Below are positions 421 through 5,157 of a stretch of 5,157 nt of DNA, one piece after another (the first letter of the stretch is position 1; every line of letters begins with the position of its first letter). The notes beneath the pieces are model-generated. The model was not told the origin of the DNA. It worked only from the letters and a program-made list of their open reading frames with translations, and made no database searches. Source of the stretch: an uncultured Eubacteriales bacterium (GTDB lineage: Bacteria > Bacillota_A > Clostridia > Christensenellales > Aristaeellaceae); NCBI GenBank assembly GCA_902766515.1, contig CACXEB010000209.1, forward strand, positions 1 through 5,157. The letters are read 5' to 3'. The translations under genes and the position numbers were made by a program.

Positions 421-1173
421 ATGCGTAAACCGATTATTGCGGGCAACTGGAAAATGAACAAGACCCCCGACGAGGCGGTCGAACTGGTCAATGCCCTGAA
501 ACCCCTTGTCAAGGACGCCGCCTGCGACGTGGTGGTATGCGTGCCCGCCGTGGACATCCAGCCGGTGAAAGCGGCCGTCAAAGGCAGCAATATCCATGTG
601 GGCGCCCAGAATGTCCACTTTGCGGCCAGCGGCGCCTATACCGGCGAGCTGTCTGCCGATATGCTGGTCAAGAGCGGCGCGGAGTATGTGATCATCGGTC
701 ACAGCGAGCGGCGCCAGTACTTCGGCGAGACGGACGCCACCGTCAACCAGCGCGTGAAAGCGGCGGTCGCGGCCGGCCTGAAGGTGATCCTCTGTGTCGG
801 CGAGAAGAAGGAAGAGCGCGAAGCTGGTTATACGGACGCGCTGGTGGAATACCAGACCCTGATCGCGCTGACCGGGCTGGACAAAAAGCAGGTCGAAAAG
901 ATAATCATCGCCTATGAGCCGGTCTGGGCCATCGGCACCGGCCTGACGGCCACGGACGAGCAGGCCAACGAGACGATCGGCGTGATCCGCCAGGCGCTTG
1001 CGCGGAAGTATGGCAAGGGCACGGCGAACAAGGTCCGCATCCAGTACGGCGGCAGCATGAAGCCTTCCAACGTGAAGGGCCTCATGGCGCAGCCTGAAAT
1101 CGACGGCGGCCTGATCGGCGGCGCTTCTTTGAAGGCAGAGGACTTTGCAAAGGTCGTTTGCTTTGATCAATGA
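421..1173 (+). CDS. tpiA: Triosephosphate isomerase
   Basis: Cytosolic TIM-barrel enzyme that interconverts dihydroxyacetone phosphate and glyceraldehyde 3-phosphate in glycolysis and gluconeogenesis, usually as a homodimer. The 250-residue length is normal for bacterial TIM. All hallmark residues are present: Asn9 and Lys11 in AGNWKMNKT, the electrophilic His94 in IIGHSERR, the catalytic base Glu166 in [11 protein letters not shown] followed by the flexible loop 6 (about 167-177), YGGS at 209-212 (loop 7) and the phosphate-gripping GGLIGGASL at 229-237. The ATG start is supported by a GGAAGGA ribosome binding site and by the first beta strand (KPIIAGNWK) beginning at once. It lies 15 bp after pgk, and its TGA overlaps the ATG of the following gene. 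Nothing in the sequence suggests loss of activity. Confidence 0.98.
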
Positions 1174-1820
1174 TCGTATCTTACTGTAAGAAGTGCAAGA
1201 TGGAGAGCGAGGGCAGCGTTTGCCAGCAATGCGGCAAACGCGCCACCGCTTCCAGCACGCGGGATGTCTGGCACACCATCCGGGTGCCCGGCGCGGACGG
1301 CAGCGCGTGGCGCAGCGGCGTCGCGGCGCTGTTATGGGTGGTCATCATCCTCCTGATCAGCCTGCTGCTGATCGAGCGGATGAATACCACCGCCAATCGC
1401 TTCGCGGGGTCTATGAGTTCACTCATCTCCGGCGTGGCGATCGCCGGCGTCATCGGCCTGCTGCTGTGCCTGGCGGCCTTTTCCCTGCAGGGCAGGGAAG
1501 AGATCCGGTACATCCTTGATATGGACGGGGCGCACATGCAGGTCTGGTACCGCGCCTCGCCTGTACATGCCCTGGCGCGCCTGCAGCGCATTTCCATGAA
1601 ATCGGCAACGCCTTCCCGGGATGGTACGAAGTATGTGAAAGCGGAAGAGCGTTTCCTGCACTGGCGGGATATCAATGAGATCCGCTGTTCGCCGTCCACC
1701 GGCACGATCCGCCTCTACCGCGTGCCGCACCTGGCTCCGTTCATCCTCCGGATCCCGCCGGAGGAATATGAGCTGGCCGAAGCGCTGGTCAAAAAGCACG
1801 CGAAGAAGAATAAACGATAA
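1170..1820 (+). CDS. Zinc-ribbon, two-TM membrane protein of unknown function
   Basis: 216 residues, function not recognised. The N-terminus has a short zinc ribbon with CxxC pairs at Cys6/Cys9 and Cys18/Cys21. After a polar linker come two strongly hydrophobic segments at about 50-68 and 85-106, separated by a short loop, so both termini should lie on the same side of the membrane, presumably the cytosol. The rest (about 108-216) is soluble, alternates like beta strands ([38 protein letters not shown]) and ends in a helix with a basic tail (KKHAKKNKR). This resembles bacterial PH-like (bPH/YcxB-type) domains, but that is a tentative inference. The start is fixed because the next in-frame ATG (codon 11) would remove the first CxxC. 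There is no good ribosome binding site; the ATGA overlap with tpiA suggests termination-reinitiation coupling. The reading frame is confident; the function is unknown. Confidence 0.85.
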
Positions 1821-1834
1821 TCCGATCGTACAGC

Positions 1835-1876
1835 AAGAAGCTGATCCCTCAATTCGAAGGATCAGCTTCTTCTTTT
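1835..1876 (+). terminator. Rho-independent terminator of the pgk-tpiA block
   Basis: A perfect 13-bp stem (AAGAAGCTGATCC at 1835-1847 paired with 1859-1871) encloses an 11-base loop and is followed by a pyrimidine-rich tail, TTCTTCTTTTG. It starts 14 bp after the zinc-ribbon protein stop and lies in the only gap between the converging blocks. Read from the minus strand the stem is equally good, but its tail is only CTTCTTGCTG, so it may act weakly in that direction for the PII-like gene, which ends 14 bp beyond it. No separate terminator for that gene is visible here. Confidence 0.82.
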
Positions 1877-1890
1877 GCCTGGGATGATAT

Positions 1891-2583
1891 TCATTCTGCT
1901 GTGGTTTCTTCTTCGTCCTGTTCCAGCATGCGGAGGCCGGCGACCTGCGTCACAGGGAGGGAGAAGCAGATCGCACCGGCCGGCGATTCGGGGCCGGCCT
2001 TTTCCATGATGGCGCGCATGATTTCAGCTTTGTTGGAAGCCTTCGCGAGGATCAGGACGATCTCCTTCTCACTGGCCAATGTCAGCCCCTTGAACTTCTG
2101 GCCCTGATGGATGCCGGTGCCCTTGGCGGTCACGACGGTGCCTCCGCGCGCGCCGGCGGGCCTGGCGGCGTCCATCACATCATCCGAATATCCTTCATTC
2201 AGGATCACATAGATCAATTCATAATCGAATTTGAGGTCCGGTCTGCCGGGTTGAGGCGTCTGCTGATCAGTCAGTAAGGACAAGGTATTCGCACCTCCTA
2301 CGCTTTTTACGGGAATCGCCATCATGATGCCGTTTCCCGGAATATCCAGGAACATTTTGAGCATGGTCTGCCGGATGAGCTGCTTAGTGCGTTCCGAATC
2401 GGCCACGGTCGCGATGATCGCTTTTTCGGTGGGGGACAGTCCCCTCAGCGTCAGGTATTCCCTCGTCGCGGTGCCGTGACCGAGCATGGTCAGGGATACC
2501 TGCAGATTCAGCGATTTCAGGATACCGGTCCATTGATCCCGCTTGTCACGGTCCAGGATGGCCATCACATAATTCAACTGCAT
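1891..2583 (-). CDS. Tandem PII-like signalling protein
   Basis: 230-residue cytosolic protein, probably a dedicated regulator of the membrane protein encoded just upstream. Residues about 121-216 read as a PII-like (GlnB/GlnK superfamily) domain: first strand ELIYVILN, then GARGGTVVTAKGTG, a short T-loop, EKEIVLILA, and the closing AGAICFSLPVTQVAG. Residues about 3-97 form a second, diverged copy: YVMAILDR, LGHGTAT, GLSPTEKAIIATV and GIMMAIPVKSVGG. EK, PV and VxG of the two lobes align at an offset of 119 residues. A linker rich in Pro and Gln (about 105-118) joins them, and the protein ends in an acidic tail (EQDEEETTAE). The T-loops are shorter than in canonical GlnB, and no uridylylation tyrosine can be recognised, so covalent control is unlikely. 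The family normally forms trimers binding ATP/ADP between subunits; whether this one does is not shown. The ATG follows the upstream stop by 3 bp and has a strong GGGAGGT site. The PII-like assignment is strong for the C-terminal lobe and good for the N-terminal one; the effector is unknown. Confidence 0.87.
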   Translation of the reverse strand: MQLNYVMAILDRDKRDQWTGILKSLNLQVSLTMLGHGTATREYLTLRGLSPTEKAIIATVADSERTKQLIRQTMLKMFLDIPGNGIMMAIPVKSVGGANTLSLLTDQQTPQPGRPDLKFDYELIYVILNEGYSDDVMDAARPAGARGGTVVTAKGTGIHQGQKFKGLTLASEKEIVLILAKASNKAEIMRAIMEKAGPESPAGAICFSLPVTQVAGLRMLEQDEEETTAE

Positions 2584-2586
2584 CCG

Positions 2587-4119
2587 TTACACCTCCCACA
2601 GCTCGATGACGTCGTTCGCTTCGGGGACCGCTTCCAGCCGGGCCCGCCGAGCCGCGCGCCTGGATACGAGGACGGAAATGACGCCCATGATCTGCACTGT
2701 GATCAGCGGCATCATCGCGACCAGGGCAACCAGGCCGAACGCGTCCGTCATCACGTTGCCGTCCAGCGCGACCACGGTGCCCATCACGAACGGCAGCATA
2801 AACGCCGCGGTGAGGGGACCGCTGGCCACACCGCCCGAGTCGAACGCGATGGCGGTGAAGTTGCTCGGCACCAGGAACGCGAGCACCAGGGCGAGGGCAT
2901 AACCGGGAACGATAAACCAGAAGATGGAGATGCCGCTCAGCGCGCGTACCGCGCTGAGCCCCATGGCGGCGCCGACGCCGATGGACAGGCTGAATCCCAT
3001 GGCCTTGGCGGAAATCGCGCCGCCGCTGAGCTCTTCCACCTGCTTGTTCAGCACATGGACCGCCGGTTCCGCGTTGATGATCAGCCAGCCCATGATGGCG
3101 CTGACAGGGATCAGCAGGAAGCGCCATTGCGAATCGGCCATCTGGTAGCCCAGCATGTAGCCTAACGGCGAAAAGCCGACGTTGACGCCCGTCAGGAAAA
3201 GCAGCAGCCCTGCAAGCGTCAACACCAGGCCCATAAAGATCCGGAAAAACGGCCTACGCCGCAGGCGGAGCGTCACCACCTGGAAAATCAGGAAGAAGAT
3301 GACGATCGGCAGCATGGCCATGGAGACTTCGCGCAGGGTATCGGGGATCGCTTCCAGGTAGCCGTGTCCCAGGGCAACGGTATCCTGGTAGGAGACTGCG
3401 GGCTGGGTAACCGTATTGCTGTCCGTCGCTCCGCGCTGGTAAATGAAGCTCAGGATCAGGACGGCCAGGACGGGGCCGACGGAGCAAAGACCGATGAGCC
3501 CGAAGCTGTCCTGCTGGGCCCTGGCGTCGCTGCGCGTGGCGGCTACGCCGATGCCCAGCGCCATGATGAACGGGACAGTCATTGGTCCGGTCGTGACGCC
3601 GCCGGCGTCGAAGGAAACGGAAATATAGTTTTGATCCGCCAGGAGGGCCAGGAGGAAGATCAGCAGATAAAACCCGACGAGCAGCCACCGGAGCGAGTAT
3701 GAATAAAGGATGCGGGCCATGCTCAGCATCAGGAAGAGACCGACGCCCACGGATACCACGATGATCAGGACGAGGGTGTTGATGGCCGGCACGTTGGCCG
3801 CCAGCACCTGCAGGTCCGGTTCGGAGACCGTAATGGCCACGCCGAGCAGGAAGCTGACCACCAGTATCAGGACCGGATTGCGGCTGCGTGTCAGCGCGCC
3901 GCCGATGTGCGTGCCGATTTGTGACATGGAAATCTCTGAACCGACCGTGAACAGCGCCATGCCGATGATCAGGAACAGGGCGCCGATCAGGTAGGCCAGC
4001 ATCAGGTCCGTCTGGAGGGGGATCCAGAAACAGCTGAGAAAGGCCACGAGCAGGACGATCGGAAGCACCGCGCCCACAGCCTCTTTGAGCTTGTCAAGGA
4101 ATACGCTCTTATCCGGCAA
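2587..4119 (-). CDS. DUF1538-type multi-pass membrane protein, internally duplicated
   Basis: 510-residue integral membrane protein, recognised as a DUF1538-family protein; the substrate is unknown, and a transport role is inferred from its architecture and partner. It has about 12-14 hydrophobic segments and two homologous halves (about 11-227 and 262-482). Matching landmarks recur at an offset of 251-256 residues: LPIV (19-22, 270-273), SEPDLQVL/AEPAVHVL (99-106, 350-357), FDAGGVTTGP/FDSGGVASGP (170-179, 426-435) and DSFGL/DAFGL (204-208, 459-463). The conserved Glu-Pro and Phe-Asp-x-Gly-Gly sites inside otherwise apolar sequence are plausible ligand or ion sites. Basic clusters (RLRRRP 285-290; RRAARRAR 487-494) suggest cytosolic segments, and the soluble C-tail ends in EANDVIELWEV. 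The start is TTG: an AGGTGA site lies 6 bases upstream, an in-frame TGA occurs three codons before it, and the next Met is residue 40. The PII-like gene follows after 3 bp; leuS lies 66 bp upstream behind a terminator. Family naming is from memory of the motif pattern. Confidence 0.88.
   Translation of the reverse strand: MPDKSVFLDKLKEAVGAVLPIVLLVAFLSCFWIPLQTDLMLAYLIGALFLIIGMALFTVGSEISMSQIGTHIGGALTRSRNPVLILVVSFLLGVAITVSEPDLQVLAANVPAINTLVLIIVVSVGVGLFLMLSMARILYSYSLRWLLVGFYLLIFLLALLADQNYISVSFDAGGVTTGPMTVPFIMALGIGVAATRSDARAQQDSFGLIGLCSVGPVLAVLILSFIYQRGATDSNTVTQPAVSYQDTVALGHGYLEAIPDTLREVSMAMLPIVIFFLIFQVVTLRLRRRPFFRIFMGLVLTLAGLLLFLTGVNVGFSPLGYMLGYQMADSQWRFLLIPVSAIMGWLIINAEPAVHVLNKQVEELSGGAISAKAMGFSLSIGVGAAMGLSAVRALSGISIFWFIVPGYALALVLAFLVPSNFTAIAFDSGGVASGPLTAAFMLPFVMGTVVALDGNVMTDAFGLVALVAMMPLITVQIMGVISVLVSRRAARRARLEAVPEANDVIELWEV
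2591..2597 (-). promoter_or_regulatory. Ribosome binding site of the PII-like gene
   Basis: On the minus strand GGGAGGT precedes the ATG (2583-2581) with a 7-base spacer. It sits inside the last codons of the membrane-protein gene, so the two genes share one transcript and are probably translationally coupled. Confidence 0.75.
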
Positions 4120-4125
4120 TACAAA

Positions 4126-4131
4126 TCACCT
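4126..4131 (-). promoter_or_regulatory. Ribosome binding site selecting a TTG start
   Basis: AGGTGA on the minus strand, 6 bases before the TTG at 4119-4117. An in-frame TGA (4128-4126) overlaps this site, so no start further upstream is possible, and no ATG or GTG is available near the N-terminus. This makes TTG the best start of the DUF1538-type gene. Confidence 0.75.
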
Positions 4132-4134
4132 GCC

Positions 4135-4176
4135 AATATAAAGTAAAATGGCTGCCCCCGCGCGGAGGGCAGCCAT
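4135..4176 (-). terminator. Rho-independent terminator after leuS
   Basis: A perfect 10-bp stem (ATGGCTGCCC, 4148-4157, with GGGCAGCCAT, 4167-4176) has a 9-base GC-rich loop. On the minus strand it is followed by the T-rich run TTTTACTTTATATT (4148-4135). It begins 9 bp after the leuS stop. Only 3 bases separate the end of the tail from the ribosome binding site of the next gene, so it may work as a partial terminator or attenuator between leuS and the DUF1538/PII pair. The plus-strand side of the stem has no T-run, so it is directional. Confidence 0.85.
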
Positions 4177-4185
4177 CGGGAAGGG

Positions 4186-5157
4186 TTATTTGACAACGAT
4201 ATTCAGCAGCCGCCCGGGGACAAATACGGTTTTGACGATCTGTTTCCCGGCGATCAGCTTCTGTACCTCCTCCCGCGCGGGGAGCGTCTGGAGGCCTTCC
4301 TCACGGCTCATATCGCTGGGCGTCATGATGCGTCCGCGGACCTTGCCGTTGATCTGGATCGCGATTTCAATGCTGTCCGCGACCAGGTACCGGTCGTCCC
4401 AGGCGGGCCAGGGCTGATGGTGCACCGGCGCGCCAAAGCCGCAGCGCTCCCAGATCTCTTCGCAGATGTGGGGGCTGACGGGGGAGAGCAGGAGCAGGAT
4501 CATCCGGAATTCACCGCGGGTGACGGATCCCTTCTGATAGACGGTATTCACCAGGGTCATCAGCTGGGCGATCGCGGTGTTGAATTTCATGGCCTCGTAG
4601 TCTTCGCTGACCTTCTTGATCGTCTGGTGCACCGGGACGAGCATGTCCCTGGAAATGTCCTCATCGTCGGTCAGCAGCTCCTGTAGCCGCCATACGCGGT
4701 CCAGGAATTTGCGGCAGCCGCGGGCGCCGTTCGTCGACCACGGGATCGCCTGGTCAAACGCGCCCATGAACATTTCGTACATGCGGAACGCGTCCGCGCC
4801 GATCTCCGCGACCATATCATCCGGATTGATGACGTTGCCGCGGGATTTCGACATTTTTTCCCCGTTTTCACCCAGGATCATGCCGTGGCTGGTACGCTTC
4901 TGATACGGTTCGGGAGCGCTGACCAGGCCCAGATCATGGAGGAAGAGGTGCCAGAACCGGCTGTACAGCAGGTGCAGGGTTGTGTGCTCCATGCCGCCGT
5001 TGTACCAGTCCACGGGCATCCAGTAGTCGAGGGCTTCCTGGCTCGCAAACGCCTCACGGTTGTGCGGATCGCAATAGCGCAGGAAGTACCAGGACGAGCC
5101 GGCCCACTGGGGCATGGTGTCCGTTTCGCGCTTGGCGTCGCCGCCGCAGCAGGGGCA
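4186..5157 (-). CDS. leuS: Leucyl-tRNA synthetase, C-terminal part (5' end outside window)
   Basis: Class Ia aminoacyl-tRNA synthetase that charges tRNA-Leu with leucine in the cytosol. The frame is open to the right edge; 323 residues are visible of the ~800-860 usual for bacteria. The Met at 5115 is internal. The visible part begins CPCCGGDAKRETDTMPQWAG: a CPxC pair likely belonging to the zinc-binding insertion, then the catalytic-domain segment continuing SSWYFLRY. The KMSKS ATP-binding loop is intact (4843-4857, visible residues 101-105) and followed by RGNVINPDDMV. Then come the helical tRNA anticodon-binding domain (including WSTNGARGCRKFLDRVWRL, then SPHICEEIWE) and the small C-terminal domain (IQINGKVRGRI ending LLNIVVK). 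The HIGH motif and the editing domain lie outside the window. A hairpin terminator follows the TAA. It has no known functional tie to the downstream DUF1538/PII pair. Confidence 0.97.
   Translation of the reverse strand, partial: CPCCGGDAKRETDTMPQWAGSSWYFLRYCDPHNREAFASQEALDYWMPVDWYNGGMEHTTLHLLYSRFWHLFLHDLGLVSAPEPYQKRTSHGMILGENGEKMSKSRGNVINPDDMVAEIGADAFRMYEMFMGAFDQAIPWSTNGARGCRKFLDRVWRLQELLTDDEDISRDMLVPVHQTIKKVSEDYEAMKFNTAIAQLMTLVNTVYQKGSVTRGEFRMILLLLSPVSPHICEEIWERCGFGAPVHHQPWPAWDDRYLVADSIEIAIQINGKVRGRIMTPSDMSREEGLQTLPAREEVQKLIAGKQIVKTVFVPGRLLNIVVK

Follow-up and report, generated by a model that had tools for sequence, protein, structure and literature searches.

A gene for a DUF1538 membrane protein and a gene for a PII-like protein stand side by side in the window (the whole 5,157-nucleotide stretch of DNA analysed here), and this pairing is conserved far beyond chance and is nearly universal where it was tested. 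Our preferred reading, held with moderate confidence, is that the pair represents a monovalent-cation/proton antiporter of the UmpAB kind together with a dedicated cytosolic, ligand-sensing PII regulator that gates the antiporter. If true, the internal pH and the Na+/K+ balance of many Clostridia, spirochaetes and some proteobacteria would be wired to a metabolic sensor via PII, and PII gating would be extended from carriers of ammonium, urea, nitrate and bicarbonate to monovalent cation/proton exchange.

Each half of the pair was already known and the DUF1538-PII neighbourhood is visible in public annotation; an earlier reading of the letters alone (the sequence-only reading) had suspected that the pairing might not be new, and a description of the pairing was not found in the literature searched. 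Among the papers listed by our searches of the open-licence literature, none treats DUF1538 or UmpAB with PII, and a word search for PII or P-II in main texts naming UmpAB or DUF1538 (PMC5484666, PMC7221264, PMC12093952, PMC5996927, PMC6055358, PMC10030654 and PMC6440370) gave nothing relevant. In PMC7221264 the string "PII" occurs once, within a peptide motif.

The two genes and the elements around them are listed in the table below. Both reading frames are open and separated by 3 nt (2584-2586), and in the minus-strand junction sequence, GAG CTG TGG GAG GTG TAA CGG ATG, the Shine-Dalgarno sequence of the PII gene lies inside the final codons of the DUF1538 gene, 8 nt 5' of the PII ATG, in agreement with the two-gene module described by the sequence-only reading. 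The pair is placed between leuS (4186-5157, partial) and a convergent block of pgk, tpiA and a 216-aa ORF.

Features of the DUF1538-PII gene pair and its junctions in the window
Feature	Position	Strand	Remarks
DUF1538 gene	2587..4119	-	510 aa, TTG start; open reading frame
PII-like gene	1891..2583	-	230 aa, ATG start; open reading frame
Junction: DUF1538 stop, 3-nt gap and GGGAGG Shine-Dalgarno	2584..2600	-	read from sequence
Terminator-like hairpin, leuS/DUF1538 gene interval	4147..4177	-	pattern scan; fold z -2.6 (modest)
Hairpin between PII gene and convergent tpiA-side genes	1835..1871	.	RNA fold of 1818-1890

The RNA fold between the PII gene and the tpiA side is strong (z -5.4 on the minus and -4.5 on the plus strand, with none of 200 shuffles equally stable), and this hairpin, which is not among the pattern-scan sites, is probably a bidirectional terminator. 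The pattern scan of 1700-4400 gave five hairpin sites against a mean of 1.3 in shuffles, so that the single site on the leuS side counts as weak evidence. With hairpins on both sides, the DUF1538 and PII genes appear to be transcribed as a single unit. By tblastn (E <= 1e-5), leuS was detected in one of 80 relatives' loci, and tpiA, pgk and the 216-aa ORF in none of the 80, of which 54 extend over at least 9 kb and the remainder are shorter; the flanking genes are thus not conserved, and the conserved unit consists of the DUF1538 and PII genes. The 216-aa ORF (1170-1820, plus strand) overlaps tpiA by 4 nt, has an N-terminal CxxC...CxxC zinc-ribbon-like start and hydrophobic segments, and matches no Pfam or NCBIfam family at cut-off.

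Linkage of the DUF1538 and PII genes across bacteria

Among the nearest loci, which were picked by DUF1538 alone as the best 80 of 584 confirmed in genome_contigs, a PII-like gene was found directly downstream of DUF1538 in all 80. A sample of two phyla was likewise chosen by DUF1538 alone: the gene is carried by 101 of 299 genomes of the phylum of Mediterraneibacter catenae and by 27 of 149 genomes (26 over the cut-off) of the phylum of a genome labelled uncultured Spirochaetaceae, and 14 control genomes had no DUF1538. This sample held 141 DUF1538 clusters in 135 loci, and a PII gene was next downstream in 135 of the clusters, overlapping in 87 cases, within 50 nt in 39 and within 300 nt in 9, the overlap counts being overstated because the most upstream start codon was taken. 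Since the PII model had been built from DUF1538-linked proteins, the neighbours were rechecked with Pfam, and 123 of the 135 match P-II at E <= 0.001.

Six clusters are left without a downstream PII gene. One is a spurious 56-aa ORF at a locus where the real cluster has PII (L174), one lies at a contig edge (L226), and one is a broken half whose partner half has PII (L310). At L312 (genome G061) the DUF1538 gene is a pseudogene with internal stops and the genome is without any PF00543 match, and at L315 (G158) a single DUF1538 gene has PII directly upstream, cut by the contig start. The sole intact exception is L188 (G223), with a tandem PII elsewhere in the genome. At L312 the carrier has decayed and the sensor is absent, and L315 shows the only reversed gene order seen.

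All nine plasmid records with DUF1538 (7 species) have PII, seven by annotation and two unannotated records by profile. The plasmids of Methylocystis and Chelativorans carry the order umpA, umpB and a single P-II, and the Alphaproteobacterial plasmids share gene order. Together with the 80 nearest loci and the two-phylum sample, these records supply the conserved PII partner for which the sequence-only reading had proposed a survey of neighbourhoods. On the Chelativorans plasmid (L082, 4792-5064) the annotation gives the umpA-like gene a length of only about 90 aa, which may mean that the pair has degenerated on this plasmid, with P-II kept. No DUF1538-PII fusion protein was found in 266 loci.

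Domain organization of the carrier and of the PII-like protein

The DUF1538 assignment of the membrane protein stands, since Pfam finds PF07556 twice in the 510 residues with 433 bits against a cut-off of 22.6, and the domains extend over about 1-236 (A) and 237-510 (B). The NCBIfam matches to UmpA (171 bits, 2.6e-50; equivalog cut-off 490, NF041627) and UmpB (136 bits, 1.4e-39; equivalog cut-off 500, NF041628) do not reach the equivalog level, and all eight other DUF1538 proteins tried were likewise under the cut-offs. On these profile matches the protein is a distant UmpA-UmpB fusion, with the two halves in one chain. Its AlphaFold2 model (AF2; pLDDT 88.6, pTM 0.87) has two homologous halves, in each of which seven membrane segments can be counted among the helices, and gave no significant fold match in the PDB, leaving an antiporter fold without structural support. 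The bias of K+R is +5.4 for separate A domains (n=38) and +6.0 for fused A (n=57), against -2.7 for separate B domains (n=38) and -3.8 for fused B (n=57). Such an opposite bias would be expected of an inverted repeat, and by the positive-inside rule A begins and B ends on the cytosolic side of the membrane.

Each half carries one Glu, in a Glu-Pro motif at the TM3 break, and one Asp, in an Asp-x-Gly-Gly motif near the TM6 break, giving the putative ion-site acids E100 and D171 in A and E351 and D427 in B. Both positions are acidic in all 201 aligned domains (E 191 and D 10 at the first; D 187 and E 14 at the second).

The small protein is likewise PII-like, as had been proposed from the letters. 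P-II (PF00543) matches at residues 123-218 with 40.2 bits against a cut-off of 25 (E 4.7e-10), in the C half only; the N half has no Pfam match, and in Peptoclostridium the N half matches P-II with 26.2 bits. The family HMM detects two domains in all 80 PII proteins of the nearest relatives, and both domains of the predicted model have the ferredoxin-like PII fold and match solved PII/SbtB structures; no NCBIfam family was matched at E <= 1. The sequence-only reading had missed two points: the 230-aa protein consists of two PII folds in tandem, and in the membrane protein A and B are fused as inverted halves.

The N domain (about 1-104) keeps the B-loop as PGNG, and the C domain (about 121-220) keeps KGTGIH...EKE and has lost the B-loop PGxG. 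PGxG resembles the nucleotide-binding B-loop. In the window's clade, P82 and G85 of the N domain are found in 82 of 82 sequences and G83 in 80, the PGxG being intact in 80 of 82. The C domain there has A202 in 78/82 and mostly A or S at 204 (73/82), with G147, G148, T149, G155, F164 and E172 each in 82/82. With decay complementary in this way, the two domains may share a single ligand site. In the wider fused set (64 of each domain) it is the C domain in which pGxGI is kept, and the N domain varies more, which makes the shared site at most clade-specific. The T-loop residues 161-169 have pLDDT below 50 in the model, a feature also of switchable PIIs. The canonical motifs of PII (GlnB/GlnK), namely QKG...YRG of the T-loop, GDGKIF of the B-loop and the C-terminal RIRTGE, are absent from the window protein and from the consensus of the DUF1538-linked PII class, as compared with 8 other PII rows, of which 6 are canonical in sequence with these motifs visible.

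Proposed gating of the carrier and alternative explanations

The sequence-only reading knew of no function for DUF1538, and here it has to be corrected. UmpAB of Halomonas zhaodongensis is a DUF1538 pair characterised as a Na+(Li+,K+)/H+ antiporter, active at pH 6.5 to 9.5, which confers salt and alkali tolerance on E. coli KNabc and forms a UmpA-UmpB heterodimer by co-immunoprecipitation (PMC5484666). The transporter class is thus not blank, and of the earlier interpretation the PII-fold partner and the conserved pairing stood while the lack of an assigned function did not. Two observations that the sequence-only reading had named as fatal to it, absence of adjacency in related genomes and failure of the small protein to match a PII-like profile, were checked and did not arise. 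UmpAB shares with the window protein the Pfam family DUF1538, paralogous A and B in tandem, each with 7 predicted TM, and conserved acids; the window differs in that A and B are in one chain, far under the equivalog cut-offs, and a PII gene follows. The active 4.2-kb clone is described as ORF1-4 with umpAB as ORF3-4 and no PII gene, umpAB alone being sufficient (PMC5484666), and PII is thus more likely a modulator than an essential subunit. Two papers on cable bacteria name homologues of UmpAB when they describe adaptations to marine conditions or salt (PMC12093952, PMC10030654), and DUF1538 appears among the pH-adaptation features of a machine-learning study (PMC13255231), in line with a function in balancing pH or cations.

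In the mechanism that we propose, the UmpA- and UmpB-like halves would be fused as one chain with two oppositely oriented 7-TM repeats, and the Glu and Asp of each half would make up the sites for cations and protons. Where its N-domain B-loop contacts a neighbouring domain, the tandem PII would bind and sense a small ligand, with an adenine nucleotide as the likeliest candidate. In one ligand state the PII protein would attach to the antiporter from the cytosolic side and reduce antiport. Gating is proposed by analogy with AmtB-GlnK and SbtA-SbtB, in which a PII-type partner docks and lowers transporter activity (PMC10710835); the substrate in the window bacterium, the ligand, the docking and the inhibition are all inferred. 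Inhibition as the direction of control is a guess, and the activity of UmpAB free of PII is more in keeping with an inhibitor or modulator than with an obligate subunit. The known systems differ from the window pair in several respects. The carrier is a DUF1538 protein, which matches only this family in Pfam and not Amt, and unlike SbtB its PII partner has tandem domains and, with C206 as the sole Cys of the 230 residues, is without the C-terminal cysteine pair required for an R-loop disulfide (for the SbtB R-loop see PMC10991534). The T-loop QKG...YRG and the C-terminal RIRTGE of GlnK are also missing.

The cargo is one point on which the preferred reading is exposed, since the equivalog cut-offs of UmpA and UmpB are missed by far. 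To our knowledge UmpAB is the one assayed DUF1538 pair. Under the same gating, the DUF1538 protein of the window's clade might instead move bicarbonate, ammonium, an organic ion or another solute, and the known PII partners act on ammonium, urea and bicarbonate carriers (PMC10710835). The two acids, acidic throughout the 201 aligned domains, speak for a common ion mechanism and against a different cargo, which we regard as unlikely. The ligand could differ too, with PII sensing an ion or metal in the manner of CutA1, or c-di-AMP, in place of an adenine mononucleotide. The N-domain PGxG, with its likeness to a nucleotide-binding loop, and the Pfam scan of the PII protein, which at E <= 1 hits no c-di-AMP receptor family, argue against this possibility, to which we assign a small probability, and the missing T-loop and C-terminal arginine motifs argue for it. 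A PII-NG protein beside the CzcABC exchanger has been proposed as a metal sensor (Sant'Anna 2009, as cited in PMC7726332), and c-di-AMP controls potassium homeostasis in B. subtilis (PMC7857571). The PII-NG/CzcABC case resembles the window pair in that a PII-type gene is clustered with a cation exporter, CzcABC being proton-driven, and differs from it in that the window PII is linked to DUF1538 and not to a CzcABC/RND exporter. Sensing of this kind would form a direct feedback loop of ion homeostasis and is compatible with the preferred reading save for the ligand.

PII might instead serve the transporter as an accessory subunit or help in its assembly, and not be a ligand-dependent switch. 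In favour of this are the near-obligate linkage, the ribosome binding site inside the first gene, the C domain of the window's clade, which has lost the B-loop motif, and the absence of the canonical T-loop and arginine motifs. We nevertheless judge it rather improbable: the N-domain PGxG is kept in 80 of 82 sequences, residues 161-169 show the low confidence of a switchable T-loop, and UmpAB functions without PII. The separate location of the tandem PII at L188/G223, which also counts against the preferred reading as an intact carrier without adjacent PII, shows that DUF1538 and PII can live apart, as they might if they were operon neighbours with no functional contact and PII acted on enzymes or transcription elsewhere. 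The gene order kept in 135 of the 141 clusters in two phyla and on the Alphaproteobacterial plasmids, with the flanks of the window not kept, makes mere neighbourhood highly improbable. As only two genes are involved, the question of gating is directly testable, and the main text of the UmpAB paper makes no mention of PII or P-II (word search, PMC5484666).

Architectures and PII copy number

A further point against the preferred reading is that the PII-gated carriers known so far are trimers according to a review (PMC10710835), as opposed to the UmpAB heterodimer. This mismatch may be resolved by the variable number of PII copies; alternatively, three A-B units may make up a trimeric carrier. 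PII is found as one to three domains, separate or fused, and, if gating is true, the pair would offer a natural series (1, 2 and 3 PII domains) for how a threefold sensor fits a pseudo-twofold carrier. Among the 135 clusters, counted with kinship of the genomes uncorrected, a fused A-B carrier was combined with tandem PII in 65 (including L253 and L255, whose PII partners have 380 aa and only two detected domains), with triple PII in 9 and with two PII genes in 1. Separate A and B genes were combined with one PII in 22, with tandem PII in 14 and with two PII genes in 6; a single DUF1538 was combined with a single PII in 12 (one being the L310 fragment), and the remaining 6 were cut by contig edges or broken. 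An intact fused carrier with adjacent PII never had fewer than two PII domains in this set.

In a domain tree of 126 rows and 110 columns, made by a quick method and with many forks unresolved, 3 changes are enough to part first-position from second-position PII domains, and a single PII duplication before the fusion is suggested. The window N domain groups with first-position domains only, in a starred set of 20 rows, but on a very long branch for which the program warns of long branches meeting.

The triple-PII proteins have about 375 aa and stand beside DUF1538 proteins of about 500 to 735 aa, and it is possible that a protein with three PII domains represents a single-chain PII trimer. When 5.8 billion proteins were searched with one of them, 22 matches came up. 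Of these, 15 are without a Pfam domain, and the two that bear an organism name are from Spirochaetia. When four triple-domain proteins were tried, three had no Pfam match at E <= 0.01 and one was under the cut-off. The triple-PII loci of the Spirochaetaceae-labelled phylum sample are L247-L252, L254, L256 and L257 (probably also L253 and L255), and the DUF1538 protein is often enlarged there.

Taken at its widest, the material would describe a widespread, hitherto undescribed class of PII-gated cation/proton antiporters in which PII regulation has abandoned its trimer rule and re-established it in other forms. The sensor would be encoded by a single gene or by two paralogues, or be fused into a protein of two domains or of three, the last a possible single-chain trimer, and the carrier would range from a single gene through an A+B pair to the A-B fusion. 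In the window's clade the ligand site would be divided between two PII domains and nucleotide status would set Na+/K+ antiport. We offer this only tentatively and regard it as less likely than not.

Single-gene DUF1538 with single PII was seen at L180, L191, L201, L217, L220, L227-L230, L297 and L298. In 9 of 11 such genomes it is the only DUF1538 match, with a weak charge bias (+2 to +5), and being alone in the genome this type is presumably a homo-oligomer. At L271 and L272, ORFs of 579 and 583 aa end in a canonical PII domain, and our guess is that they are Amt fusions.
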